Part shown: positions 1,600-28,192 of the stretch, piece by piece | Position numbering within the stretch: position 1 is the stretch's first letter | Layout: each line of letters opens with the position of its first letter | DNA from: Paludibacteraceae bacterium | Lineage (GTDB): Bacteria > Bacteroidota > Bacteroidia > Bacteroidales > Paludibacteraceae | NCBI GenBank assembly: GCA_017962085.1 | Contig: JAGCWA010000017.1 | Coordinates: 1-64,000 of the forward strand | Length of the DNA: 64,000 nucleotides | Direction: 5' to 3' | Notes under the pieces: model-generated | The model's input: only the letters and a program-made list of their open reading frames with translations | Database searches by the model: none | Told to the model about the DNA's origin: nothing | Position numbers and translations under genes: made by a program

Positions 1600-2541
1600 A
1601 TGAAAAAGAGATACATTTTATTGGGTTTCATTTGTGCACTAACATCATGTAAATCAGCCATTGACAAATCCATCACCGAACCCCTTAGCAATAAAGAAAT
1701 GGTCGAAATATGCAAGGATTATAGCGACCTGAATTTAGAAAAACCTCTCGCATATATTGGATCAGAAGAGTCATATCTAAGACATCTCGCTAAGGATCTA
1801 TACCTAAAATATGCGGACGTGACCTATCGCGATATTATAAAATACCGTGAAATGGCAACGGACACAAATAGGCTAAAGGAGCTTAAAGAAAAATACGACC
1901 AGTACGCCAATGTATGTTGTGATTCCGCATGGAAGAAGATAACCGACATCCGCGAGAGCATAAAAAGAGACACATCGTTCAATAAATATGCAAAAATATA
2001 CTATACCCTGGGAGAATCAGAAGATCGATTTCATTGCCCACCTAGAAAACGCAAAACTATAAATGCCAATATTGATCTCTATGATAATGAGATAACACGT
2101 TTTGGAGGAATTGTAAGTATAGCGTCAAAAGAAGGAGCCAGTAATCCAATTATCAAATTCCATATTTATGATGCCTATGTTGATCGATATGGTTGTAGTT
2201 TCTCTAGGAACCCAGCATATGATGAGGACACCTTGGATTACGTCAGTGGTGAATATGATTACGCATTCAATATCCTTTGGGTGGAAAAGGGAGGCGAAAC
2301 ACTATACACATCCAAGGAATACTGGGATCTACTTAAATCAAATAGTAAGCCCATATTGTTCAGTTATTCTTTTTACGACTCGTATTTCGTAAGGGATATA
2401 GCCATAAACGACAAACAATTATTTAAAATCACAAACATCGACATCAAAAGCCGAAAAGCTTTCACGGATTCCCTTTTATTCGAGCAAATGAACGAGAGAA
2501 CCAGAAGAGCGGGAGAATTCTATTTAACCTTAAAACAATAA
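1600..2541 (+). CDS. Hypothetical lipoprotein, 313 aa
   Basis: The N-terminus MKKRYILLGFICALTSCKS is a short type II signal peptide with lipobox LTSC, so the product should be a membrane-anchored lipoprotein after cleavage before Cys17. The mature part is mixed alpha/beta and rich in Tyr, Lys and Asp, with an alpha-helical N-terminal half (residues 40-130) and a beta-rich C-terminal half (150-300). I recognise no domain. The gene is more AT-rich than ychF and mnmA downstream, suggesting accessory origin. Neighbours give no functional hint. Confidence 0.7.
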   Translation: MKKRYILLGFICALTSCKSAIDKSITEPLSNKEMVEICKDYSDLNLEKPLAYIGSEESYLRHLAKDLYLKYADVTYRDIIKYREMATDTNRLKELKEKYDQYANVCCDSAWKKITDIRESIKRDTSFNKYAKIYYTLGESEDRFHCPPRKRKTINANIDLYDNEITRFGGIVSIASKEGASNPIIKFHIYDAYVDRYGCSFSRNPAYDEDTLDYVSGEYDYAFNILWVEKGGETLYTSKEYWDLLKSNSKPILFSYSFYDSYFVRDIAINDKQLFKITNIDIKSRKAFTDSLLFEQMNERTRRAGEFYLTLKQ

Positions 2542-2838: not shown

Positions 2839-3939
2839 ATGGCATTACAATGTGGCATCGTGGGGTTGCCTAACGTAGGAAAGTCAACCCTTTTCAACTG
2901 TTTATCCAACGCGAAAGCGCAAGCGGCTAATTTTCCATTCTGCACAATAGAGCCTAACGTGGGCGTGATCACCGTGCCCGACGAGCGCCTCAACAAACTG
3001 GCGGAGATCGACCATCCGCAACGTGTCATCCCTACCACGGTGGAGATCGTGGACATCGCGGGTCTCGTGAAGGGAGCCAGCAAGGGAGAGGGCTTGGGCA
3101 ATAAGTTCCTCGCCAACATCCGCGAGACGGACGCCATCCTCCACGTGCTCCGTTGCTTCGACGACGAGAACGTGACACATGTGGACGGCAGCGTGGACCC
3201 TGTGCGCGACAAGGAGATCATCGACATGGAGCTCCAACTGAAAGACTTGGAGACCGTCGAGAGCCGCATCCAGAAAGTACAGAAGCAAGCCCAGACCGGA
3301 GGCGACAAGACCGCCAAGGCAGTGCTGGACATCCTCCTGAGATACAAGGCCGCATTGGAGGCTGGCAAGTCTGCCCGTACCGTGGAGCTCACCAAAGAGG
3401 AGAAACCGATCGTCAAGGACCTCTTCCTCCTCACCACCAAGCCTGTCCTCTACGTCTGCAACGTGGACGAGGCCAGCGCCGTCAGCGGTAACAAATATAC
3501 CCAAGCGGTAGCGGAGGCTATCAAGGAGGAGAAGGCTGACATGCTGATCGTGGCGGCCGCCACCGAAGCGGACATCGCCGAACTGGAGACCTACGAGGAG
3601 CGCCAGATGTTCCTCGAAGAGGTGGGACTGAAGGAGTCGGGCGTGGCCAGACTGATCAAAGCAGCCTACAAGCTGCTGGACCTCCAGACCTTCTTCACCT
3701 CAGGAGCGGACGAGACCCGCGCATGGACCTTCCGCCGCGGCATGAAGGCTCCGCAATGCGCCGGCATCATCCACACGGACTTCGAGAAGGGATTCATCCG
3801 CGCCGAGGTCATCAAATACGAGGACTACGTGGCCTTAGGCTCCGAAGCAGCCTGCCGCGAAGCTGGTAAGATATCCATAGAGGGAAAAGAATACATCGGA
3901 CAGGACGGTGACATCATGCACTTCCGTTTCAACGTCTGA
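2839..3939 (+). CDS. ychF: Redox-regulated ATPase YchF (Obg-like)
   Basis: 366 residues, the usual YchF length. The G domain shows the P-loop GLPNVGKSTLFNCLS (residues 8-22), switch region TTVEIVDIAGLVKGASKGEGLGNKFL (G3 DIAG near 72) and a YVCNVDE motif in place of the canonical NKxD, which explains the ATP rather than GTP preference known for this family. The C-terminal TGS-like domain ends FRAEVIKYEDY...GDIMHFRFNV, the normal YchF ending. The family binds ribosomes and is linked to translation and stress responses. It is followed 20 bases later by mnmA, probably in one transcript of housekeeping genes. Confidence 0.97.
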   Translation: MALQCGIVGLPNVGKSTLFNCLSNAKAQAANFPFCTIEPNVGVITVPDERLNKLAEIDHPQRVIPTTVEIVDIAGLVKGASKGEGLGNKFLANIRETDAILHVLRCFDDENVTHVDGSVDPVRDKEIIDMELQLKDLETVESRIQKVQKQAQTGGDKTAKAVLDILLRYKAALEAGKSARTVELTKEEKPIVKDLFLLTTKPVLYVCNVDEASAVSGNKYTQAVAEAIKEEKADMLIVAAATEADIAELETYEERQMFLEEVGLKESGVARLIKAAYKLLDLQTFFTSGADETRAWTFRRGMKAPQCAGIIHTDFEKGFIRAEVIKYEDYVALGSEAACREAGKISIEGKEYIGQDGDIMHFRFNV

Positions 3940-5287: not shown

Positions 5288-5884
5288 ATGGCTAGCCAAA
5301 AATTTGAATTGATGACACTCCCCTACGCCGCCAATGCGTTGGAACCAGTTATCAGCCAGCAGACCATCGCCTTCCACCATGGGAAGCACCTGCAAGCTTA
5401 CGTGAACAACCTCAATGCACTGTTGCCCGGCTCGGGCTTCGAAGAGACGCCGCTCGTGGAGATCGTCAAGAAATCGACTGGCGGAATCTTCAACAACGCA
5501 GGACAAATACTGAACCATGAGCTCTACTTCGGACAGTTCCGTCCGGCTAAAGCGGACAACCAGCCTGCGGGAAATATCGCCAATGCGATCACCAGGGACT
5601 TCGGGTCGTTCGACGCCTTCAAGGAGGAGTTCCAGAAGAAGGGCGCTACCCTATTCGGCTCCGGCTGGGTGTGGCTCTCCGCGGACGCTAATGGCAAGCT
5701 CGTCATCACCCAAGAGGCGAACGCCGCTAACCCCGCAAAGCAAGGACTGAAACCCCTGCTGACCTTCGACGTGTGGGAGCACGCCTACTATTTGGACTAT
5801 CAGAACCGTCGTCCGGACCACCTCGCCGCTCTTTGGTCAATCATCGACTGGCAAGTCGTGGAGCAACGGTATAATGCGAAATAA
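5288..5884 (+). CDS. sodB: Iron/manganese superoxide dismutase
   Basis: 198 residues. It dismutates superoxide to oxygen and peroxide. Metal ligands are visible: His in AFHHGKHLQAYVNNLN, His in ILNHELYF, and Asp/His in FDVWEHAYYLDYQNRRPDHLAALW. The Gly/Gln signature GSGWVWL is present. The start at 5288 (MASQKFEL) follows a normal leader. A longer frame from 5201 would run through the promoter hairpin and is rejected. No signal peptide is visible, so it is cytosolic. Metal choice (Fe, Mn or cambialistic, as in several Bacteroidota) cannot be read from sequence by eye. A strong terminator follows. Confidence 0.96.
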   Translation: MASQKFELMTLPYAANALEPVISQQTIAFHHGKHLQAYVNNLNALLPGSGFEETPLVEIVKKSTGGIFNNAGQILNHELYFGQFRPAKADNQPAGNIANAITRDFGSFDAFKEEFQKKGATLFGSGWVWLSADANGKLVITQEANAANPAKQGLKPLLTFDVWEHAYYLDYQNRRPDHLAALWSIIDWQVVEQRYNAK

Positions 5885-5936
5885 CCAGCATAGAGTATCA
5901 GTGCAATAGGCTGGTAAACAGAACTATACAAGATGG

Positions 5937-5985
5937 GGTTGAGTGGGTGGCCGTTACGCTGTCCACTCAACCTTTTTCTTTCGAG
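5937..5985 (+). terminator. Intrinsic terminator of sod
   Basis: GGTTGAGTGG at 5937-5946 pairs with CCACTCAACC at about 5962-5971, followed by TTTTTC. Ten perfect base pairs and a T-run 50 bases past the stop codon. Confidence 0.85.
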
Positions 5986-6036
5986 GCAAGATTACACTCA
6001 CGGCGGTTTTTACTTACTGTATTAGATATAATATAA

Positions 6037-18281: not shown

Positions 18282-19550
18282 TTACTTCTTCGGTAGCGGT
18301 ACGCTGATTTTGTAGAAATTGTGATAATGGGGGATTTTTGTGCCTTGCGCACCAAACAATTTCTCAGACTCTTTCTGCAATTCACAATCTTGGCCAGGAT
18401 ATAGAATAATGCATCGTGGCGAATAATCTTCAGGAAGCCCAGGCAACAGTCTTTCGTCACGTGCATTACCACTTATCTCACGGATATCATTAATATCCGC
18501 ATGGTTTTTGTTTTGATAATCAGGTTTATACTTTGCGTCAAGAATTAATTTCTCTTCACGAATCACGAAGTCTGCTACCTGACGTCCATAAAAGCCACGC
18601 TTCTGAAACAGGACCTCGTTCACGCTATTCTCCTTCAACTTACTCCACACCCACATCTCGTACAACCGCGCCATATCAATCCAAAACGGAGGTGTGGCAT
18701 TGTATTCTTCATCGTTGGCGTTGGTAACACTGTAATCAAACCGACGCAATAGCATTTTTGCCACACGGATGGCCTCTCGGTACTCCTTGAAAAGCTTATT
18801 GGTCGCCAAATGCTGAATCTGATAGGGCTCAATATCATCAGATATATGTCCGAACCTGGATTTCAGGAGATTCAACAAAAGTGGTATATCTGTTTTTGAA
18901 AGTTGTCGCTGCAGACTTGTCCATTTCGCCATGATACGCTCGCAAAAAACCAGCGCACGCTTCAGCAAACGGTTTTCGGGCGTGTCGTCAGTATATTCCT
19001 GAAACTGACAATAGATACGGTCCTGTCGTTGCTGAAACACATTTTGTTGCAAGTGTCGTCCCATCATAATCCGCCCCTTCACCTTCGCCTTCATGTTCTC
19101 TTCACGTGTGATGTAGTCCTTCTTCAACCCACGTTTCACCAGACGGTCGAGCAACGATAGGTAGTGCAGAACCAACAAAGGGGTAAGTTGATTAAGGCAC
19201 ACCGGAGTTTGGATGGCAGGCTCATCGAATCGTATGCCATAACAATCTGAAAAATAATCCGATTCATTTTGCGAATCTACCTCCAAGGCCGCCAAGAACA
19301 TCTTCACGAAATCAGTATCTTCAACCTTTGGTGTAACCACCACCGCCAATTCATCTCTGATTAACCATGAGGCACCAATGAAGTAGGAGGCACGATAATT
19401 TTGATCGATACCTAGATATTGCGGGGCGGACATGTATTGGGTCGGGACACCAACAAATTTTACGGATTGTAATTGTTCCGTATATTGCTCTTCCCAATCT
19501 GATGATTCATTAAGCGACTGATGTTCAATTATCTGTATCGTTTGCATCAT
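18282..19550 (-). CDS. mcrC: McrC-type component of a McrBC restriction system
   Basis: 422 residues. McrC supplies the nuclease of the McrBC modification-dependent system, acting with the McrB GTPase. The C-terminal PD-(D/E)xK nuclease is visible as VADFVIREEKLILDAKYKPDYQ (D...DAK, about residues 330-350). The N-terminal half has the beta-rich McrC region (QYLGIDQNYRASYFIGASWLIRDELAVVVTPKV). Length is close to that of other McrC proteins. The start overlaps the end of the BRO-N gene by 26 bases, so the three genes mcrB, BRO-N and mcrC form one operon read leftwards. AT-rich, in keeping with an acquired defence module. Confidence 0.87.
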   Translation of the reverse strand: MMQTIQIIEHQSLNESSDWEEQYTEQLQSVKFVGVPTQYMSAPQYLGIDQNYRASYFIGASWLIRDELAVVVTPKVEDTDFVKMFLAALEVDSQNESDYFSDCYGIRFDEPAIQTPVCLNQLTPLLVLHYLSLLDRLVKRGLKKDYITREENMKAKVKGRIMMGRHLQQNVFQQRQDRIYCQFQEYTDDTPENRLLKRALVFCERIMAKWTSLQRQLSKTDIPLLLNLLKSRFGHISDDIEPYQIQHLATNKLFKEYREAIRVAKMLLRRFDYSVTNANDEEYNATPPFWIDMARLYEMWVWSKLKENSVNEVLFQKRGFYGRQVADFVIREEKLILDAKYKPDYQNKNHADINDIREISGNARDERLLPGLPEDYSPRCIILYPGQDCELQKESEKLFGAQGTKIPHYHNFYKISVPLPKK

Positions 19551-20385
19551 CGTCCTTAGTTTTATCTATCTGTCTCAATCCCTTTTTGGCATTCAATGGG
19601 GTCACTACCGAACGTCCCAATTGCTTTTCCAGTTCCTCACGTGCGGAACGTGCCACCCTACCTCCTTTATGTGCCACGTTCATGTTCTCTCCGAATGTTT
19701 CAGGTTTTTGTGCTTTCGACAAATCAGTGGTAGCAGCCTCTGCCAACATGTTGAGAATTAATTCGGTATTAGTCATGTTATCACGAAGATTCTCCTTCTT
19801 CAACCCTTTGAATTGCTTATACTCCTTGGTTGTTTTCCCGCTCCAAGTTTTTGTGATAATATCGGTCAGCGTAGCAAATTGAGCCCCCTCTTCCACTCCA
19901 CGTCGTTTCCATTCCTCGGTTAGTTCCTTGCGTACCTCGATAGATTTCAGTCGCTGGTTAATCCAATTATCAGAATACCCCAAACGTTTGTAATCGAGCA
20001 TGGCTTGTTCTATGGAAAGTTCAGGATCCTGCATTTGGTCAATTCGATTGCTTGCCACCTGCGCCATCCATAGCTTGAATGGTTCAGCCTTAGGAGACGG
20101 AATGGATTGGATGATACGGAAAATCTGTTCTAAATCAGCCACATCGGTTAGACGTTTTTTGCCATCATCCGCTTGTAATTTCAACTGGCTACAATTTGTA
20201 GCCGTTTCATTGCCCTCTTTTTTCAAACGTGTTTTAAGGACACTCCAGTACTTTCGTGGATTGTCGCTGTCAGTTAATATTCCGACAACGTCAATCACTG
20301 AGAAATACCATTTCTCCTTCTCGTCGTCCCATGCGGTACGAACTTTCTTTTTTTCAAACAATTGAATAGCTTGTTTCTGTGTCAT
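19525..20385 (-). CDS. BRO-N domain (DinD/antirepressor-like) protein within the mcrBC operon
   Basis: 286 residues. The N-terminal BRO-N domain (about 1-110) includes WYFSVIDVVGILTDSDNPRKYWSVLKTRLKKEG and LEQIFRIIQSIPSPKAEPFKLWMAQVAS. The C-terminal helical region (120-260) resembles DinD-like proteins, including the NMTNTELILNMLAEAATTDLSKAQKPETFGEN segment. Related proteins occur as phage antirepressors and DNA-damage-induced factors. It sits 25 bases after mcrB and overlaps mcrC, so it is translated with the restriction system. A regulatory or DNA-recognition role within it is inference. Confidence 0.8.
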   Translation of the reverse strand: MTQKQAIQLFEKKKVRTAWDDEKEKWYFSVIDVVGILTDSDNPRKYWSVLKTRLKKEGNETATNCSQLKLQADDGKKRLTDVADLEQIFRIIQSIPSPKAEPFKLWMAQVASNRIDQMQDPELSIEQAMLDYKRLGYSDNWINQRLKSIEVRKELTEEWKRRGVEEGAQFATLTDIITKTWSGKTTKEYKQFKGLKKENLRDNMTNTELILNMLAEAATTDLSKAQKPETFGENMNVAHKGGRVARSAREELEKQLGRSVVTPLNAKKGLRQIDKTKDDDANDTDN

Positions 20386-20410
20386 GATTCATTAGTAACT
20401 ATAAAAACAG

Positions 20411-22891
20411 TCATTCTCCCATTTCATTAGGTTTTGTAGTGACACGCCACGTTCCCACAAACTCCTCCATTCCCATGCCCGAATCAATCATCTTCGCATT
20501 GACGATTCCATCCTTGATGTATTCATTCAGCAGCGGAAGAATTTCGTACTGCCATCGTAATTCCAGTTCGGCATCATCTTTTGCGAAGAAATAGCTATGA
20601 CCCACCATCAGATCCTCAAAATCCATTTCAGTTTTGTTCTTCCTGATGAACAATTCAACGGCCTCAAAAAGTTTCACCTGTTTAGAATCTGCGCCATATC
20701 TCTCCACCAATAGATTCTTATCCGCCCTCAACGTCACGAAAGCGAACCTTCGTCTTACAGCATAGTCAATATTGCCCACGCTACGGTCGGTGGTGTTCAT
20801 GGTACCGATGATGTAGAGGTTGGACGGCACGCCAAAAGTCTCTTTCGAATAGGGCAATGTGACCTTGATCGGGTGTTCTCCACCCATGCGCTTGTCCGCC
20901 TCCAATAGGGTAATCAATTCACCGAAAATCCTCGACACATTGCCACGGTTGATTTCATCGATGACGAGGACATAGTTCTCATATTGTTCAACTGAATCCG
21001 CTATCTCATCTATAAGTTTTTCTTGAACGGGTTCCTCTGGTTCTGATGAATGAGGAGACGATGCGATGACACGTTTAGCTCTATTTAGCATCTCTTGCAG
21101 CATAGCACCATAATACATATAATCAACCGTATTAGTTTGGCCCTTCGTGAGGTTCGTAATTATTTTAAAGAAATCGTCCCGCCCATAAATGTTTATATCA
21201 TAAGTATTTCTCCCTAAGAAATAATCATAATACAATTCTAAATTGCTTTTATTGATGGTCTTAGGATGTTCACCAAAATACAGATTACTGTATTCATATT
21301 TAACTGGAATAAGACTACGTCTAAAAGGCAATGCCTCAATCGTTTTGTTCTTTATATCCTGCTCAACGGATTTATACACATTCTCAAAGTCAGTATCTTT
21401 AAGAAAATTCTTGATGGTTGATGATGTCACTGCAGCTACAAATGTTGGCCTTTTTTTTACCAAAACATCTGTTCCTTTTGACGCATTACTACACATCATT
21501 TTAAAAACACCATCCTCAACCTCATATCTGACTGCTCCATTTTCTGTTTTGGGTTTTATCCCCTCCACAAAATCCTCATAGTCCATTGACTGATGGAAAG
21601 TGCAGAAACCAATACGTCCATCTTTTTGAAGTTCTTCGTAGCGTTTCATAAGGTCTGCATGTTCAGCGGGAACCTCCTCGCCACAAATACTCAATGCTAA
21701 AGCCGCTGTATTATATGTTTTCCCTGTGCCCGGCGCACCTTGTAGGATAATGTTTTTCTTGATGTCTATGATTTTATTATATTTTTCGATATTATTATCC
21801 ATACCTCCAACTAATTGTTTAATTGTTTTCCCTGCTAATTTGTCTAATTCAATAAGTTCTGCAATAACATTATCAGCGACGTCATTTATATCGCCTTTCA
21901 TCTCATACCCCTCATCATTCATTCTAAAACCACTATAATCCCAAGAAAATTCATGAATACCTGAAACATTCTTTAAAGCATCTGCATAACGTTCAGAGGT
22001 TTGTTTATTCTCTAGATGAATCTCAACATAAATACGATTTTTCTCATGCCCAACATCACCATTGCCATCAGCACAAAACTCATAATGACATTCACTTGTT
22101 GCTCCAAATTGATCTGAGAGAATCCAAGCATATTTTTTATATACTTTCTGTTCTTTCGTAGAAAATCCAACGTCTCTTAACTTGGACTTAACAATCGAAC
22201 AGAAATCATTAAATTTAAATGACTTCGATTCTTTCCAGGCATCATAAGAAATCACCACAAAAAGATATTCAATTGGCTTATCCTGTCCTAGTTCCTCTTT
22301 TACAACTTGCAGCAAATTTAAATAAGATTCTGCGCTATCCACATTGACGACAATGCCATGGTTCTCCAAGTAACTAACATTCCTACTATCTAACGCAATA
22401 TAATTCTTTGCTTTACACCAGAACAAAGGCATCGTACATTCTGCCCTTCTTTTGGCAATATTATAGTAACTGAACCACGGATTTAAATCACCATTCATCA
22501 TTGCTTCATATGCATTCCACAGTTTTTCGCAACTTTCAGAAAGGTTATTCCAATCATAAAAAAACATTCTTGCATAGTTCAAAACTGGTATCCCATCAAA
22601 ATCAGAAGGAACGTCAGATTGAATTACAAACAAGTTTTTTATCCTTTCCAATATCTTTATCCTATTATTCGGAGACAAACTACCACGATTAAACATACCC
22701 ATAAACGTGAATGGATCAATATCATCTATCTTTTCCGATTTGTCTTGCAAATGTAAATAGTCGGAAAATTCCCTCAATCCATTTTCCGCAAAGATGAATT
22801 CAATTAAAGGTTTTCTATCAACCTTATAGCTCAGTAGTTTTTCAGCCAATTCCGTGTAAAACGGAATCCAAGTAAAATTATGTTCTTCCAT
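20411..22891 (-). CDS. mcrB: McrB-type AAA+ GTPase
   Basis: 826 residues from MEEHNFTW. McrB recognises modified DNA through its N-terminal region and translocates with its GTPase motor. The N-terminal part (1-370) is a DNA-binding or unknown region with an MrcB/DUF3578-like stretch (DVGFSTKEQKVYKKYAWILSDQFG, about 245). The AAA+ motor holds Walker A GAPGTGKTYNT (about 397-407), Walker B YVLVIDEINRGNVSRIFGELITLLE (about 650) and the McrB signature TMNTTDRSVGNIDYAVRRRF (about 706). The ATG at 22891 is preferred over upstream TTG 22924. A promoter lies about 50 bases upstream. Confidence 0.88.
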   Translation of the reverse strand: MEEHNFTWIPFYTELAEKLLSYKVDRKPLIEFIFAENGLREFSDYLHLQDKSEKIDDIDPFTFMGMFNRGSLSPNNRIKILERIKNLFVIQSDVPSDFDGIPVLNYARMFFYDWNNLSESCEKLWNAYEAMMNGDLNPWFSYYNIAKRRAECTMPLFWCKAKNYIALDSRNVSYLENHGIVVNVDSAESYLNLLQVVKEELGQDKPIEYLFVVISYDAWKESKSFKFNDFCSIVKSKLRDVGFSTKEQKVYKKYAWILSDQFGATSECHYEFCADGNGDVGHEKNRIYVEIHLENKQTSERYADALKNVSGIHEFSWDYSGFRMNDEGYEMKGDINDVADNVIAELIELDKLAGKTIKQLVGGMDNNIEKYNKIIDIKKNIILQGAPGTGKTYNTAALALSICGEEVPAEHADLMKRYEELQKDGRIGFCTFHQSMDYEDFVEGIKPKTENGAVRYEVEDGVFKMMCSNASKGTDVLVKKRPTFVAAVTSSTIKNFLKDTDFENVYKSVEQDIKNKTIEALPFRRSLIPVKYEYSNLYFGEHPKTINKSNLELYYDYFLGRNTYDINIYGRDDFFKIITNLTKGQTNTVDYMYYGAMLQEMLNRAKRVIASSPHSSEPEEPVQEKLIDEIADSVEQYENYVLVIDEINRGNVSRIFGELITLLEADKRMGGEHPIKVTLPYSKETFGVPSNLYIIGTMNTTDRSVGNIDYAVRRRFAFVTLRADKNLLVERYGADSKQVKLFEAVELFIRKNKTEMDFEDLMVGHSYFFAKDDAELELRWQYEILPLLNEYIKDGIVNAKMIDSGMGMEEFVGTWRVTTKPNEMGE

Positions 22892-22938
22892 TGATATTTT
22901 CTTAACATTACAGGAAACGAACAACGTTTCTCAGAATA

Positions 22939-22969
22939 CAAATATACATTTTTCCCTCTCACCGAAAAA
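22939..22969 (-). promoter_or_regulatory. Promoter of the mcrB operon
   Basis: On the minus strand TTTT (-33) and TATATTTG (-7) are separated by 19 bases. The predicted start lies about 40 bases before the mcrB ATG at 22891. Confidence 0.6.
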
Positions 22970-23139
22970 CATTCAGCCTCAACACGACGGAATAATCCTA
23001 CTGAAAACTTTTTATAAATACGGCAAAAGTTTTCAGTAGGGAAAGCATGGTTCAGAACAGAAACAAGCATAATAATTAAGCAAGGCACATCCTTGTTCCA
23101 TATAGACATAAGGCAGATATTGACGGCCTCCACGCATTT

Positions 23140-23176
23140 CGTTTTTTGAGGTCGCAAATTGCGACCTCAAAAAACG
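23140..23176. repeat. Free-standing perfect hairpin, relative of the ORF6N hairpins
   Basis: CGTTTTTTGAGGTCGCA (23140-23156), AAT, then TGCGACCTCAAAAAACG (23160-23176): 17 perfect base pairs around a three-base centre. The core TCRCA-AAT-TGYGA is the same as in the hairpins inside the three ORF6N genes that follow. No T-run lies after it on either strand, so it is not a normal terminator. It is the main feature of the gap 22892-23208. Confidence 0.85.
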
Positions 23177-23208
23177 GTTCAAGGTGAATTTTTTGCACCA
23201 TGAAACTA

Positions 23209-24078
23209 TCATATCACTTTAGCCAAAATATCAGATATAAACCCCGCATCAAACAGTTCGAAGGCAAAGCATTTCTTGCCAAGGTCTTTAAGCGAAGCGC
23301 CGAGGTGGTAGAGAATACTGTTGTCGATAATCAGGAAGCGGTCATGCATCGAAGTGGTGTGCCTTACCGTAAGTGTAGGGTACTGCGCATTGAAGCTGCG
23401 GACATCCTGCGCTGTCAGCCTCGTGGTGGGCAAAGTGTAGATGGTGACGTCCACGCCGTTGCTCTTGGTCGAAAGGCGTTCGAGCACTGTGATATCCACG
23501 TAATTGTCTATCAGCACAATCTCTTTCTGGGCTTGCGCAATAAAGCCCTGGAATTTAGCGTACGCATCGAATATCTGGCCTTGAAAGAAGATACCTTGGG
23601 TATCATCGATTTTATATCGGTCCATTCGTGTGAATAACTCATCAATACGCTTGTCAGATTCTATACGATGTATCTCAAGCGAGTCGAGTCGCTGGAAGAT
23701 CTGCGCATTCGACAAAAGGAATTTGCGCATGGCGACAAAAGCCTTGATAATCTGAATACTTGCAGTAACAGCTGTATCGCTTTTTAATACAGCGGAAAGC
23801 ATTGCAACTCCTTGTTCCGTAAATGCAAACGGTCTTTTCCTAAGACCCATCTTAATTGAATTGGATATCACAAATTGTGATTTCCATTTTTCAAACTCGT
23901 CTTTGTTTAACTGAAAACAAAACTCATCAGGGAAACGCTCCATATTGCGCTTTACAGCCTGATTCAAAATTCTTGTCTCCACTCCATACAGTTCAGCTAT
24001 GTCTCGGTCTAACATAACCTGCTGGTTACGAATCACCAATATTTTGTTTTGGATGATTGCTAATTCTTTATTTTCCAT
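23209..24078 (-). CDS. ORF6N domain protein with PLD-like C-terminal domain, copy 1
   Basis: 289 residues from MENKELAII. The N-terminal ORF6N DNA-binding domain (about 8-95) shows VIRNQQVMLDRDIAELYGVETRILNQAVKRNMERFPDEFCFQL, a variable segment with SQFVI, then FAFTEQGVAMLSAVL. A helical linker follows. The C-terminal domain (about 175-289) has IFDAYAKFQGFIAQAQKEIVLIDNYVD and MHDRFLIIDNSILYHLGASLKDLGKK, resembling half of a phospholipase D/nuclease fold with H-x-R-x4-D in place of HxKx4D. Two paralogues lie immediately upstream in the same orientation. The role is unknown, and a DNA-binding nuclease or regulator is inferred. The ATG at 24078 was chosen over 24096. Confidence 0.82.
   Translation of the reverse strand: MENKELAIIQNKILVIRNQQVMLDRDIAELYGVETRILNQAVKRNMERFPDEFCFQLNKDEFEKWKSQFVISNSIKMGLRKRPFAFTEQGVAMLSAVLKSDTAVTASIQIIKAFVAMRKFLLSNAQIFQRLDSLEIHRIESDKRIDELFTRMDRYKIDDTQGIFFQGQIFDAYAKFQGFIAQAQKEIVLIDNYVDITVLERLSTKSNGVDVTIYTLPTTRLTAQDVRSFNAQYPTLTVRHTTSMHDRFLIIDNSILYHLGASLKDLGKKCFAFELFDAGFISDILAKVI
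23862..23886. repeat. Degenerate hairpin inside ORF6N copy 1
   Basis: ATCACA-AAT-TGTGAT at 23867-23881, flanked by GGA and TCC that pair across one mismatch. It occupies the same codon positions (SQFV) as the longer hairpins in copies 2 and 3. Confidence 0.6.
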
Positions 24079-24100
24079 TACAGATAAAAATTTCAATTTA

Positions 24101-25030
24101 TTACATCACCTTCTCTAGAATATCAGGGATGAAGCTTGCGTCAAACAGGTCGAAGGCGAAACATTTCTTCCCCAAGTCCTTGAGTGATGCGCCAACATGG
24201 TAAAGAATGCTGTTGTCGATGATTAGAAACCGGTCATGCTTTTGTGAGGTGTGTTTTACTGTCAATGTGGGGTACTGGGCGTTGAAGCTACGAATATCCT
24301 GTGCGGTCAGTCTTGTGTTGGGCAAGGTGTAGATGGTGACATCCACGCCGATGTTTTTGGTCGCCAGTCTTTCAAGCACAGACAAATCCACATAATTGTC
24401 TATCAATATAATCTCCTTCTGAGCCTGACTAATAAAGCTTTGGAATTTAGCGTATGCATCAAAGATCTGGCCTTGGAAGAAGATGCCTTGGGTGTCATCG
24501 ATTTTGTACTTGTCCATCAAAGAAAACAATTCCGCAATTTGCTTATCGTGTTCTTTGTGATGGATGTCAGACTCTATGAGGTGTTTTTGAATGGTGTCGA
24601 TTTCTGCGAATAAACAGGCGTTATTATGCAAAAAACTTCTCATTTCACGGAAAGCTCGCATTATAAAAATGCTTTGTTGGTCGGCAAGGTCACCACGCAA
24701 AACCGTGGCAAGCATATAAATTCCTTGTTCAGTAAAAGCATTCGGCATTTTCCTTATACCACCCCAACTTGAAGTCACAAATTGTGACTTCAAGTTTAAA
24801 ATATCATATTGCGATTTTACCATATCCAATTCTTCACGTGTCAGTTGAAACATAAAATCGGGAGGAAAACGATTTATATTCCTTTTGACTTGTTGATTGA
24901 GAGTTTTCACTTCATATCCATAAATCTCAGCCAAATCACTATCAAGCATCACTTGGACTCCACGGATTGTGTAGATTCTCCCTTTGAAATCATCTACGCT
25001 GTGTATTGCTAATTCTTTCTTTTCCATCAT
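24101..25030 (-). CDS. ORF6N domain protein with PLD-like C-terminal domain, copy 2
   Basis: 309 residues. The ORF6N domain is at about 15-115 (TIRGVQVMLDSDLAEIYGYEVKTLNQQVKRNINRFPPDFMFQL, later NAFTEQGIYMLATVL). The middle region (125-175) differs from copies 1 and 3, but the C-terminal domain from KYKIDDTQGIFFQGQIFDAYAKFQ to the end is nearly the same, with HDRFLIIDNSILYHVGASLKDLGKKCFAF. This is the most divergent N-terminus of the three, so the copies share one effector domain with different DNA-recognition heads. It starts 18 bases after copy 3 ends and is likely co-transcribed. A 14-bp-arm hairpin lies in its variable segment. Confidence 0.82.
   Translation of the reverse strand: MMEKKELAIHSVDDFKGRIYTIRGVQVMLDSDLAEIYGYEVKTLNQQVKRNINRFPPDFMFQLTREELDMVKSQYDILNLKSQFVTSSWGGIRKMPNAFTEQGIYMLATVLRGDLADQQSIFIMRAFREMRSFLHNNACLFAEIDTIQKHLIESDIHHKEHDKQIAELFSLMDKYKIDDTQGIFFQGQIFDAYAKFQSFISQAQKEIILIDNYVDLSVLERLATKNIGVDVTIYTLPNTRLTAQDIRSFNAQYPTLTVKHTSQKHDRFLIIDNSILYHVGASLKDLGKKCFAFDLFDASFIPDILEKVM
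24766..24796. repeat. Perfect hairpin inside ORF6N copy 2
   Basis: AACTTGAAGTCACA (24766-24779), AAT, TGTGACTTCAAGTT (24783-24796): 14 perfect pairs. It encodes NLKSQFVTSS on the minus strand. The outer arm sequence differs from copy 3 but remains fully complementary. Confidence 0.85.
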
Positions 25031-25048
25031 AGATATTTTTTCAATTTA

Positions 25049-25951
25049 TTATATCACTTTAGCCAAAATATCAGGTATGAAACCCGAATCAAACAATTCG
25101 AAGGCGAAGCATTTCCTGCCAAGGTCTTTGAGTGAGGCGCCGAGGTGGTAGAGAATACTATTATCGATAATCAGAAAGCGGTCATGCATTAAAGTGGTGT
25201 GTCTTACCGTAAGTGTAGGATACTGTGCATTGAAACTACGGACATCTTGCGTTGTCAGCCTCGTGTTGGGCAAGGTGTAGATGGTGACGTCCACACCGCT
25301 GTTCTTGGTCGAAAGGCGTTCGAGCACTGTGATGTCCACGTAATTGTCTATCAGCACAATCTCTTTCTGGGCTTGCGCGATAAAGCTCTGGAACTTAGCG
25401 TACGCATCGAATATCTGGCCTTGGAAGAAGATGCCTTGGGTGTCATCAATTTTGTAACGATCCATTCGTGTAAATAACTCATCAATACGCTTATCAGATT
25501 CTATACGGTGTATTTCAAGCGAGTCGAGCCGTTGAAAGATTTGCGCGTTCGACATGAGGAATCTACGCATAGCGACGAAAGCATCCATAATTTTGACACT
25601 GACTTGAACTGCTGTTGGACTACGCAACACTGATGATAACATTGCAACACCTTGCTCTGTGAAAGCATAAGACAAATACTTAGAATGTTTGCCTCTTAAA
25701 TTGTCCGTGTCATTCTTCTTTAAGGTCACAAATTGTGACCTTAAAGAAGAAGAGTCGATTTTAGACTGTTCTTCTTTGGTCAGTTGGAACATAAATCTAT
25801 CAGGAAACCTATCGGCATTTCTTTTTACCGCTTGGTTCAAGACTTTCGTCTCCACTCCATACAGTTCAGCTATGTCTCGGTCTATCATAACTTGTTGGTT
25901 ACGAATCAGTAAGATTCTGTTTTGGATTGTCGTCACTTCAATTGGTATCAT
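25049..25951 (-). CDS. ORF6N domain protein with PLD-like C-terminal domain, copy 3
   Basis: 300 residues, the first gene of the three-copy array. The ORF6N domain is at about 8-110 (LIRNQQVMIDRDIAELYGVETKVLNQAVKRNADRFPDRFMFQL, then a variable hairpin segment LRSQFVTLKKND, then YAFTEQGVAMLSSVL). The helical linker and PLD-like domain closely match copy 1 (LMHDRFLIIDNSILYHLGASLKDLG). DNA of the last 500 bases is roughly 90 percent identical to copy 1 by eye, showing recent duplication or gene conversion. It lies in an AT-rich island next to mcrBC. Neighbours suggest defence or phage-derived regulation, which is inference. Confidence 0.82.
   Translation of the reverse strand: MIPIEVTTIQNRILLIRNQQVMIDRDIAELYGVETKVLNQAVKRNADRFPDRFMFQLTKEEQSKIDSSSLRSQFVTLKKNDTDNLRGKHSKYLSYAFTEQGVAMLSSVLRSPTAVQVSVKIMDAFVAMRRFLMSNAQIFQRLDSLEIHRIESDKRIDELFTRMDRYKIDDTQGIFFQGQIFDAYAKFQSFIAQAQKEIVLIDNYVDITVLERLSTKNSGVDVTIYTLPNTRLTTQDVRSFNAQYPTLTVRHTTLMHDRFLIIDNSILYHLGASLKDLGRKCFAFELFDSGFIPDILAKVI
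25713..25751. repeat. Perfect hairpin inside ORF6N copy 3
   Basis: TTCTTCTTTAAGGTCACA (25713-25730), AAT, TGTGACCTTAAAGAAGAA (25734-25751): 18 perfect pairs. It encodes SSSLRSQFVTLKK on the minus strand. Confidence 0.88.
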
Positions 25952-26150
25952 TGTACTTATAGCTTTTGTTAGTCAAAAAATCAGGTATTGATCAGAAAAA
26001 ACAGACAGTAATTTATTTTACATGTCAAAGATACGCATAGTTACGGGAAAAGCAAACAATATTATTTATTAAATTAACCATATCCATCCTATTGAAAACA
26101 ATAGATGAATATGATTGTAAGGGGAAATAACTACAATAGGAATTTTTCTG

Positions 26151-26260
26151 TTCCAGCCCTTCAGGCTGAGGGGTCATGTGGATCATCCTTACCCACGGCG
26201 GTGCCATGGGCTATATATGTTGCAGCCTTTCAGGCTGATGTGTCTTTGCCAATCAATTCG
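26151..26260. repeat. Intergenic multi-hairpin repeat, copy 1
   Basis: CAGCC-CTT-CAGGCTG (26154-26168), CCCACGGC-GGT-GCCATGGG (about 26192-26210, one G-T) and CAGCCT-TTC-AGGCTG (26223-26237) follow one another in the gap 25952-26252 after the ORF6N array. The second part, from GGGCTATATATGTTGCAGCC to CCAATCAATT, recurs in diverged form at 28378-28432. REP-like sequences of this style are common in Bacteroidota. Confidence 0.6.
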
Positions 26261-26804
26261 AGGGAGACGATATCACCTTCCTAAAACGGAACATGCCGTC
26301 ATGATCATCCGTCCCACACTCAGGATCATTGGGGTCTGGATGATGGCTATTGTAGAACTCAACGATATGAAAGCCGCAACGGTTCACATAGAAATGGATG
26401 TTGCGTTTCTCAAAATAGGGCGTTACGGTTTCCCATACCCTGATTTCGGGATGCATCCGCTCGATAGCCTTCCATGCGGAAAAGCCTATGCCTCGACTAT
26501 GGACATGGGGCAAAACAAAGAGCAAATCCAAATGACCAATGTGCGTCTCTTCATCTATACAAATGACCACGCCTCCCACCTTCTTGCCATCACAGATAAT
26601 ACGGTACGTCTCCGCACCCTCCGCATCAATAGAACTCTCAATGGCTTCTCTGCCGATAATTTCTCCTTCCCCATCAAGGTGGTCATCCCGCATACCAAAC
26701 TCCTGCGTCGCACCGTATTTAAACGCTTCTTGATTGTCACGGATAAATTGTTCCCGATCATCGTCTTTTAATGATTCAAGTGCTATGTCTGTCGGCCTTT
26801 CCAT
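26253..26804 (-). CDS. GNAT family N-acetyltransferase
   Basis: 183 residues. The GNAT core is visible: beta strand GAETYRIICDGKKVGGVVICIDEETHIGHLDLLFVLPHVHSRGIGFSAWKAIERMHP, in which HSRGIGFSAW corresponds to the acetyl-CoA-binding Q/RxxGxG/A loop (about residues 101-110). It ends with a late strand and NRCGFHIVEFYN, typical of motif B. The substrate is not predictable. It is cytosolic, with no signal peptide. It lies between the ORF6N array and the AlbA_2 gene on the same strand, 23 bases after the latter. Confidence 0.85.
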   Translation of the reverse strand: MERPTDIALESLKDDDREQFIRDNQEAFKYGATQEFGMRDDHLDGEGEIIGREAIESSIDAEGAETYRIICDGKKVGGVVICIDEETHIGHLDLLFVLPHVHSRGIGFSAWKAIERMHPEIRVWETVTPYFEKRNIHFYVNRCGFHIVEFYNSHHPDPNDPECGTDDHDGMFRFRKVISSPSN

Positions 26805-26827: not shown

Positions 26828-28192
26828 TTAGTTTTCTTTTTCAATCACTTCCCAGTAACCATTCTTGTCAGAACCAATACGAATAACCACATCAAGTTCT
26901 TGCAAATGTTTCAACATCCGAGCAATTGTTCGCCTTGAAGATTGGGTCAACTCCGCATATTGCTCATACGAATAGTTAGGATATTCAGCTATCATCTTTA
27001 ACAACTCCTTCTCCTTTTCAGCGAGAATATTTACAGTGCCATTTACAGTGCCATTTACAATGCCATTTACAGTGCCATCCATCAAATCCGCATTCGACAT
27101 GTTATCTTTTTCCTTCCACGCATACGGAACTGTCATACGAATGTAATTGCCACCAAACTCAAAGTTTTCCCGTCCGTAGATGCGCATGATGCGGTTCATA
27201 CCCGAACCAAGTGCCTCCACCATCTCCACATCACGGAAGACTCTCATAAGTTCTCGATTACGTGGCATACTCACACCACAAAAGAAGTCCTCCTTGGTCA
27301 ATCCCAAAGGAATCTTTCCAATAGAGGTAATCTCCAATCTATCCGAGAAAAGTTCAATCTTTGATGGCGCACCATAAAAATAATCATTGTGCACAATGGC
27401 ATTGATAACTGCCTCACGAACAGCGATTTTATCCCATTGAGGTGTGTCAATACGCCTTTTCGAGGTAATCACGGAAGATATTTTATTCTCAACATCAAGT
27501 TTATCAAGAACCCTCTGTGTGGCTGTAATCAAACTACAGTAGCCATACTCATTGTTGGAGATTAGCTCGTAACGGTCTGTCCCTGCGTATTTTGCCAACT
27601 TCATTGAATTGCTATTCTCATCTGCAAGCAGATATGCAACATAATTGTACTTTCCATCATCGGTCATCAGATCAAGTGTACGAATGAAATTGTCGTTAAG
27701 TTGGAATCCCTTTTCTGTGTAATAAATTTTGAGTTGCACAAATGTCAGATCTTGTCGTGGTGAAACCACATTTTTTAACGAATTATGCACCTTACGTGCG
27801 TAAAAATCTTCTATTTGTGCATTTGTCATCGGTTCCGCTGCTGTTCCTACACGCATAAAACACCCTTTTTCAGACAATCCATATTTCGTTTTGTAATAGG
27901 GCTTCTCACTTCCACTGGCCACAAAAATCTTGATGACTTCTACATTGTCAATTGTTTCAATCATCACATCAAACAATCCCATAGGAGATGGGGAAATACC
28001 ATTACGAATACGATCTTTGATTCGAAGTATATCTCCATCAATGTCTTGTACACCAACGGGTAATCCGTCATCATCAATTCCAATATAAAGTATGCCACCC
28101 TCACGATAATTGAGGAATGCCACCACTTCGCGCTCTATGTCAAGATCACGAGTCAATTCACGCTTAAATTCTATTCGATTTGTTTCAATCAT
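26828..28192 (-). CDS. Schlafen AlbA_2 / HATPase_c_4 ATP-binding regulator
   Basis: 454 residues. The N-terminal AlbA_2 (Schlafen-like nucleic-acid-binding) domain is at about 5-125 (ETNRIEFKRELTRDLDIEREVVAFLNYREGGILYIGIDDDG). The HATPase_c_4 region is at about 255-380 (REAVINAIVHNDYFYGAPSKIELFSDRLEITSIGKIPLGLTKEDF, EALGSGMNRIMRIY). A low-complexity linker NGTVNGIVNGTVNGTVN (about 373-390) leads to a C-terminal winged helix (about 395-454). These proteins were once annotated as RecG-like regulators and are widespread in accessory regions. The DNA- or RNA-target role is inferred. Confidence 0.85.
   Translation of the reverse strand: MIETNRIEFKRELTRDLDIEREVVAFLNYREGGILYIGIDDDGLPVGVQDIDGDILRIKDRIRNGISPSPMGLFDVMIETIDNVEVIKIFVASGSEKPYYKTKYGLSEKGCFMRVGTAAEPMTNAQIEDFYARKVHNSLKNVVSPRQDLTFVQLKIYYTEKGFQLNDNFIRTLDLMTDDGKYNYVAYLLADENSNSMKLAKYAGTDRYELISNNEYGYCSLITATQRVLDKLDVENKISSVITSKRRIDTPQWDKIAVREAVINAIVHNDYFYGAPSKIELFSDRLEITSIGKIPLGLTKEDFFCGVSMPRNRELMRVFRDVEMVEALGSGMNRIMRIYGRENFEFGGNYIRMTVPYAWKEKDNMSNADLMDGTVNGIVNGTVNGTVNILAEKEKELLKMIAEYPNYSYEQYAELTQSSRRTIARMLKHLQELDVVIRIGSDKNGYWEVIEKEN
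27031..27078. repeat. 12-bp tandem repeat encoding NGTV in the AlbA_2 protein
   Basis: Four tandem copies of TTTACAGTGCCA (one with CAA for CAG) in frame. On the minus strand they encode NGTV units. A 12-base in-frame unit can gain or lose copies without frameshift. Confidence 0.8.

Follow-up and report, generated by a model that had tools for sequence, protein, structure and literature searches.

Introduction

Rickettsia palindromic elements are palindromic DNA within reading frames, inserted into unrelated genes, and the parB gene of Bacillus subtilis, spo0J, holds a parS site. In the ParB/Noc family the palindromic parS and NBS sites are read by two monomers, and a few residues switch the specificity, including arginine-guanine versus glutamine-adenine, according to the part of the published account used here (PMC7383237). 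For the KilA-N domain, the recognition sequence is described, in the portion of the source that we cite, as little known outside the fungal subfamily (PMC4862756). In this work we analyzed a 64,000-nucleotide stretch of a Paludibacteraceae genome (contig JAGCWA010000017.1, positions 1 to 64,000; hereafter the window), in which tandem ORF6N genes contain palindromes that, as judged from their sequences, the encoded ORF6N proteins very probably read in their own genes.

KilA-N, Bro-N and ORF6N genes were present in many of the genomes searched. Autogenous operators are already known; a self-site inside the codons of the protein's own DNA-binding domain is apparently unreported, and we found no report of an intragenic self-site for these families in the titles and abstract starts of the open-licence literature, which is not proof of absence.

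Results

Intragenic palindromes in three tandem ORF6N genes

The minus strand of the window carries three ORF6N genes in tandem and the remnant of a fourth, with the features given below (palindromes have no assigned strand; the role of the helix codons is suggested by the coupling to the palindrome bases).

25049..25951, minus strand: ORF6N gene 3 (PF10543, 9.6e-33; PADLOC PDC-S05, 1.9e-113)
25713..25751: gene 3 intragenic palindrome, perfect, 19-bp arms, half-site ..TTAAGGTCACAA
25817..25852, minus strand: gene 3 putative helix codons, translated as ETKVLNQAVKRN
24101..25030, minus strand: ORF6N gene 2 (PF10543, 7.7e-35; PDC-S05, 3.9e-114)
24766..24796: gene 2 intragenic palindrome, perfect, 15-bp arms, half-site AACTTGAAGTCACAA
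24878..24913, minus strand: gene 2 putative helix codons EVKTLNQQVKRN
23209..24075, minus strand: ORF6N gene 1 (PF10543, 5.8e-34; PDC-S05, 1.1e-115)
23862..23886: gene 1 intragenic palindrome, imperfect, 11 of 12 pairs
23941..23976, minus strand: gene 1 putative helix codons ETRILNQAVKRN
23140..23176: fourth palindrome, perfect, 18-bp arms, TCGC flavour

The PF10543 scores of the three proteins (112.8-119.5 bits, with a cut-off of 27.8) place them in the ORF6N family, and ORF6N was the only domain that the Pfam search found in them. In gene 3 the ORF6N domain is followed by a conserved C-terminal part bearing an HDRFLIID motif; gene 1 is given from its first ATG, instead of the TTG at 24096 where the listing of open reading frames (ORFs) begins. 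All the palindromes are of the odd type, with a 1-nt centre. A first-pass annotation of this DNA had reported palindromes in all three genes, and there they were found; the arms of the two perfect ones hold 19 and 15 pairs, not 18 and 14, the third is imperfect as described but with 11 of 12 pairs rather than about 10 of 11, and the fourth had been missed. This fourth palindrome sits in the minus-strand ORF6N remnant (...RFLRSQFATSKNEMRGGRQYLPYVYMEQG...), whose helix half is lost, and its core is TCGCAAATTGCGA versus TCACAAATTGTGA in the other three, the middle of the core having changed in both arms (TCGC..GCGA in place of TCAC..GTGA).

The 13-mer core TCRCAAATTGYGA has four matches in the 3.37-Mb genome, all of them in the ORF6N genes of the window or the remnant, and its reversed control has none. 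When the centre base was left free and as many as 2 mismatches were allowed, GTCACAANTTGTGAC gave nine places versus four for the reversed control; these nine are the four palindromes of the window and five others (one an exact match), in which only 4-7 of the 11 positions k2-k12 are paired (k numbers the coding-strand bases from the centre base towards the ends of the palindrome). No full ORF6N or KilA-N site was found in this genome outside the family's own genes. Repeated insertion of a mobile palindrome, which the first-pass annotation had also considered, is not needed here and was rejected for this genome because the 13-mer core occurs nowhere outside the ORF6N genes and the remnant, though rows of palindromes exist elsewhere.

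Conservation of the palindrome among ORF6N genes

Surveys for PF10543 detected it in 121 of 200 genomes from the family, in 58 of 198 from the phylum and in 58 of 198 from the phylum to which a Desulfuromonadales genome belongs. The main set of loci (L001-L345) was formed by up to 30 loci per search and 120 stretches picked from the family and phylum surveys, together with the best 80 among 589 relatives found in species genomes plus 49 in viral contigs; the loci from the Desulfuromonadales-phylum survey were excluded from it and reserved as a later held-out test. The palindrome is present in Bacteroidota, Lachnospiraceae, Treponema, Omnitrophota and others, extends over about 27-31 covarying bp and occupies the same place in the genes. 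At 85% identity the 343 full domains were represented by 301, of which 257 had an in-frame palindrome score of at least 6. Within these 257, pairing reaches 93-99% at k2-k6 and k9-k12, with 70% at k1, 81% at k7, 88% at k8 and 86% at k13, and drops outward to 58-61% at k14-k15 and 19-28% at k16-k20.

To control for the coding sequence, homologous domains were compared with 200 resamplings each that kept the same protein and the same centre and drew synonymous codons. A score of at least 6 was observed in 274 of 293 domains, and 270 of the 274 beat at least 95% of their resamplings (224 beat all 200). When the centre was left free, 57% of the 293 observed domains reached a score of 10, versus 0.7% of the resampled ones; the same score was reached by 57.5% of 322 ORF6N ORFs versus 3.9% of 805 other ORFs (at least 150 aa, same loci), a class that includes some KilA-N and ORF6N pieces, which raises its 3.9%. 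The codon-shuffle check proposed in the first-pass annotation thus leaves its observation standing, and its claim that the two arms have changed together is borne out across the family, under a DNA-level constraint and above synonymous controls.

Two further observations concern individual loci. In L276-L295, several broken ORF6N genes seem to be interrupted close to the palindrome, with partial Pfam matches that end at about positions 51-68, which raised the suspicion of a frameshift hotspot there. In Treponema L339, at about 1659-1815 (minus strand numbering), an ORF6N gene has four in-frame LRSQFATS-like motifs; three palindromes were scored there, the first two fitting their own helix and the last not.

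DNA constraint versus RNA structure

Complementary arms that covary are the classical sign of an RNA structure, and the centre pair k1, free and loop-like at 70% pairing, would suit a hairpin in the mRNA selected for attenuation, as an RNase site or for translational control. However, the sense-strand mismatches at k2-k13 comprise 73 A-C and only 28 G-U, so that G-U is not preferred, and the rates at k7 are nearly equal, with A-C/(A-C+G-C) being 37/195 and G-U/(G-U+A-U) 12/61, both about 19-20%. An Rfam scan of 22500-26500 gave four matches up to E 1, every one of them far under the gathering score, and, as detailed below, the identity of the bases can be predicted from amino acids of the encoded protein. 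The hairpin in RNA, part of the first-pass proposal, was discarded on the G-U and A-C counts and the lack of an Rfam family, and we regard it as highly improbable. The match with the lowest E, a weak one to RAGATH-12 at 25806-25878 (minus strand; 25.1 of 75 bits), is probably due to chance.

In a subset of the genes the same palindromic DNA is translated in another frame, giving ELVTNCDRL-like instead of LRSQFVTS-like peptides, which indicates that the DNA, and not the peptide, is what is conserved. The arms covary under a DNA-level constraint.

Coupling between helix residues and palindrome bases

A putative helix of the form E-T-x103-x104-L-N-x107-x-V-K-R-N (residues 103-111 being alignment columns) is encoded about 30 codons upstream of the palindrome, and the link between its residues and the arm bases is nearly deterministic, the pairings following side-chain chemistry. 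The base at k4 is A in 117 of 120 cases with Gln107, G in 91 of 92 with Glu107 and C in 43 of 47 with Lys or Arg at this position, and Lys103 is accompanied by G at k7 in 158/158. The k4 rule was correct in 18 of 19 cases of the held-out set. In the window, the palindromes of gene 3 (residues 103, 104 and 107 = Lys36, Val37 and Gln40) and gene 2 (Lys42 and Gln46) have A at k4 and G at k7, matching the prediction of the code from the Gln and Lys residues; gene 1, whose protein has Gln40 and Arg36, shows A at both k4 and k7. On a tree of 279 tips built without the helix and without the palindrome peptide, 83 changes were counted for residue 107, 82 for k4 and 84 for their joint state (versus 155-174 with shuffled bases), so that residue and base change in concert about 80 times.

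In the common frame k4 sets Val, Ala or Gly and k5 sets Ser, Cys or Phe of the peptide encoded by the palindrome, so that contacts of the helix with this peptide could yield part of the coupling, the symmetry of the DNA being secondary. Yet synonymous bases, which are invisible to such contacts, also track the helix. When only synonymous positions are considered, the Ser codon at k4 is TCA in 119 of the 120 genes that have Gln107 and TCG in all 80 that have Glu107, and other TCN codons of the same domains are unlinked to residue 107 (p 0.55); similarly, the wobble base of the Lys/Arg codon at k7 is G in 146/146 genes with Lys103 and in 10/39 with Arg103, and other codons show no link to residue 103 (p 0.51). 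Moreover, the genes that use the other frame keep the same base rule: their Cys wobble base fits the helix in 15 of 15, and k4 was predicted in 17 of 18, versus 12 of 18 by guessing the commonest base, the single miss (L143) being a different palindrome elsewhere in the domain. Coevolution within the protein as the sole source of the coupling is, therefore, very unlikely.

A functionless palindrome could also be kept up neutrally by hairpin-templated mutation between the arms. A few genes (L021, L028) have arms of up to 22 bp, past the conserved 13-15 bp, which would be in agreement with such a process, as would the several palindromes within one gene that can each be well paired (among the matches listed) and the arms of close relatives, mostly identical while the flanks diverge (among the pairs listed, 70 of 200). 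But templated mutation predicts no link of arm bases to residues about 30 codons away, and other ORFs of the same loci reach score 10 far more rarely than ORF6N ORFs; it was dropped once the residue-base code emerged, and we consider it extremely unlikely. The same code makes recognition by the ORF6N protein, one of the roles that the first-pass annotation had suggested for the hairpin, the best explanation of the palindrome, with the difference that the target is best understood as double-stranded DNA with two-fold symmetry and not as a hairpin. Nothing in these results calls for a recombination site, the other role suggested there, though no direct test of it was made.

KilA-N and Bro-N genes and sites outside ORF6N genes

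KilA-N and Bro-N loci had been chosen as negative controls but came out positive, with analogous palindromes and codes, and they were replaced in that role by other ORFs and permuted patterns. In IMG/VR, the KilA-N pattern was found at 79 loci versus none for a permuted palindrome pattern with identical composition, and the ORF6N pattern at 120 loci or more versus nine for the control pattern, the matches outside ORF6N genes in viral contigs being partly ordinary palindromes. Complementarity at all four free pairs is seen in 9 of the 15 distinct KilA-N-type sites inside a KilA-N ORF and in 9 of the 37 distinct ones outside it, the chance expectation being 1 in 256. When 15 loci with outside sites were inspected, 4 sites lay within other ORFs and 11 between ORFs; some of the between-ORF sites directly follow stop codons or separate convergent genes. 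A search of one Rha locus (L406) yielded no clear palindrome (score 7), and DinD-like and some Bro-N genes (L869 1398-2252, L402) may bear a further palindrome type (ATTTTGCTGA..TCAGCAAAAT).

The window also contains a Bro-N gene, whose palindrome encodes part of NETATNCSQLK and has a YWSV helix upstream (about 20239-20250):

19525..20385, minus strand: Bro-N gene (PF02498, 2.9e-10; PADLOC PDC-S13, 8.1e-138)
20187..20203: Bro-N intragenic palindrome, GGCTACAA-A-TTGTAGCC, 8-bp arms

This gene is flanked by a McrBC-like pair (a PF10117 protein and an 837-aa AAA_5 ATPase; 18282-22924, minus strand), a defence-island-like neighbourhood. The ORF6N array is adjoined by a gene for a Schlafen AlbA_2/HATPase_c_4 protein (26828-28192, minus strand), and just past the ORF6N remnant a perfect 16-bp inverted repeat with a 12-nt loop (22997-23040) is possibly a terminator.

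Discussion

Taken together, the results are best explained, with a probability of about 0.88, if the palindrome is a double-stranded two-fold operator read by the product of its own gene, probably as a dimer, and likely for autorepression. The ORF6N domain would insert the helix into the DNA, residue 107 (together with 104) specifying k4 and k5 in both half-sites and residue 103 specifying k7. Two subunits would read the two arms, so that both arms would need one shared half-site and a change in helix specificity would take both of them along; such two-fold symmetry accounts for the covarying arms, the limit of 13-15 bp and the free centre. Being placed about 30 codons 3' of the helix codons in the same ORF, the site would also have to encode the LRSQFVTS-like peptide, and the bound protein would block transcription of its own gene from within. 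That repression is the outcome, given self-reading, is a conjecture that we consider somewhat better than even.

Several points weigh against this account. No palindrome of score 6 was detected in 18 representative domains, and arms beyond 13-15 bp are left unexplained by a two-fold site. The assignment of residues 103-111 to a DNA-contacting helix is suggested by spacing and coupling; the fungal KilA-N relative PCG2 reads DNA by its wing and not by the helix, according to the portion of the source cited (PMC4862756), and a search for a solved relative of ORF6N found none (best E 0.011, judged chance). The change counts on the tree may be inflated by tree error, recombination and the short alignment, yet these would not produce the coincidence of the changes. 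No clear palindrome was found in the annotated KilA gene of the Streptococcus satellite phage Javan559 (3645-4391) or in the Rha gene of phage EW, whose best scores were 4 and 8. Simple autorepression does not explain that, among the KilA-N-type viral loci (L457-L529), the site lies outside the KilA-N ORF in 49 of 79 and inside in 30 of 79, nor does it account for noncoding rows of palindromes with mixed flavours beside ORF6N genes (L174, L280). In Flavobacterium L174, such a row of four ORF6N-type palindromes of different flavours follows an ORF6N gene at about 2984-3157, and similar rows occur in L280 and L632. Finally, the flanks of ORF6N genes contain 93 extra sites, and the palindromes within 600 nt of these genes and outside ORF6N-like ORFs, some of them unrelated, fit the helix of the neighbouring gene in 8 of 24 cases upstream (10.2 expected) and 5 of 18 downstream (6.7 expected). 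An operator at the promoter was, therefore, rejected, as the flank sites fit their own helix no better than chance, and a classical autoregulatory circuit gets no backing from this side.

The alternative that we take most seriously keeps the binding and changes its purpose: the protein would recognize copies of its gene on incoming related elements, in superinfection exclusion or element competition, with the C-terminal part as effector. In agreement with this possibility, the three ORF6N genes match PADLOC PDC-S05 and the Bro-N gene PDC-S13, beside McrBC-like genes, and in three phage records (phage EW and the Streptococcus satellite phages Javan559 and Javan97) a KilA-N match, situated between the integrase and a repressor-like gene, contains the sole site with 7 or fewer mismatches of 30 (Javan97 has a second place with 8). 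In Javan97 (L854/L869, about 5612-5989), the KilA-N match and its palindrome reach upstream of the annotated start of the coding sequence (5752), which indicates that the gene is mis-annotated or disrupted. Paralogues of 65-80% identity in the same genome are seldom alike in flavour (5 of 89 pairs, versus 336 of 2610 sampled pairs from different genomes; Fisher p 0.049), as expected if cross-talk is avoided. Nevertheless, this effect is modest and disappears at 60-65% identity (4/44 versus 234/3011), and at 80% identity or more alike pairs prevail both within and between genomes. Moreover, such a protein would constantly face its own gene as a target, the effector role is putative, and the PADLOC names denote candidates, so that we consider this purpose possible but doubtful. 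As a broader and equally tentative proposal, ORF6N, KilA-N and Bro-N could be self-addressed genes, with an essentially unique genomic target in the codons of their own DNA-binding domain, that would police gene copies on phages, satellites and islands and diversify through coupled changes into orthogonal addresses.

If self-reading is correct, the target of each protein could be read from its own gene, which would provide many natural protein-site pairs and a recognition code; recognition by the encoded product would constrain the coding sequence, synonymous sites among it, and a portion of the conserved peptide motif in profile databases would really be a conserved DNA site. The function of the so-called antirepressors and of these defence candidates would then be directly testable.

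Comparison with known systems

The PADLOC profiles PDC-S05 and PDC-S13, strongly matched by the ORF6N and Bro-N proteins of the window, are names for candidates that come without a mechanism or a DNA site. Unlike Rickettsia palindromic elements, the ORF6N palindrome belongs to a single position in a single domain family. Among the three families that show the feature described here is KilA-N (of the KilA-N/APSES DNA-binding domains), and the coupling points to a helix, whereas PCG2 uses the wing (PMC4862756, in the part cited). ParB/Noc proteins resemble the ORF6N case in that a palindrome is read by two monomers and a few residues switch the specificity; in contrast, parS and NBS are conserved across orthologues, as far as the cited part of PMC7383237 goes, whereas ORF6N flavours vary from gene to gene and the full sites in this genome are confined to the family's own genes. 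Autogenously regulated repressors likewise combine a DNA-binding protein with a neighbouring operator, probably in a feedback loop, but in most of the ORF6N members sampled the site lies inside the codons of the DNA-binding domain, and the half-site and the helix change together within one ORF.

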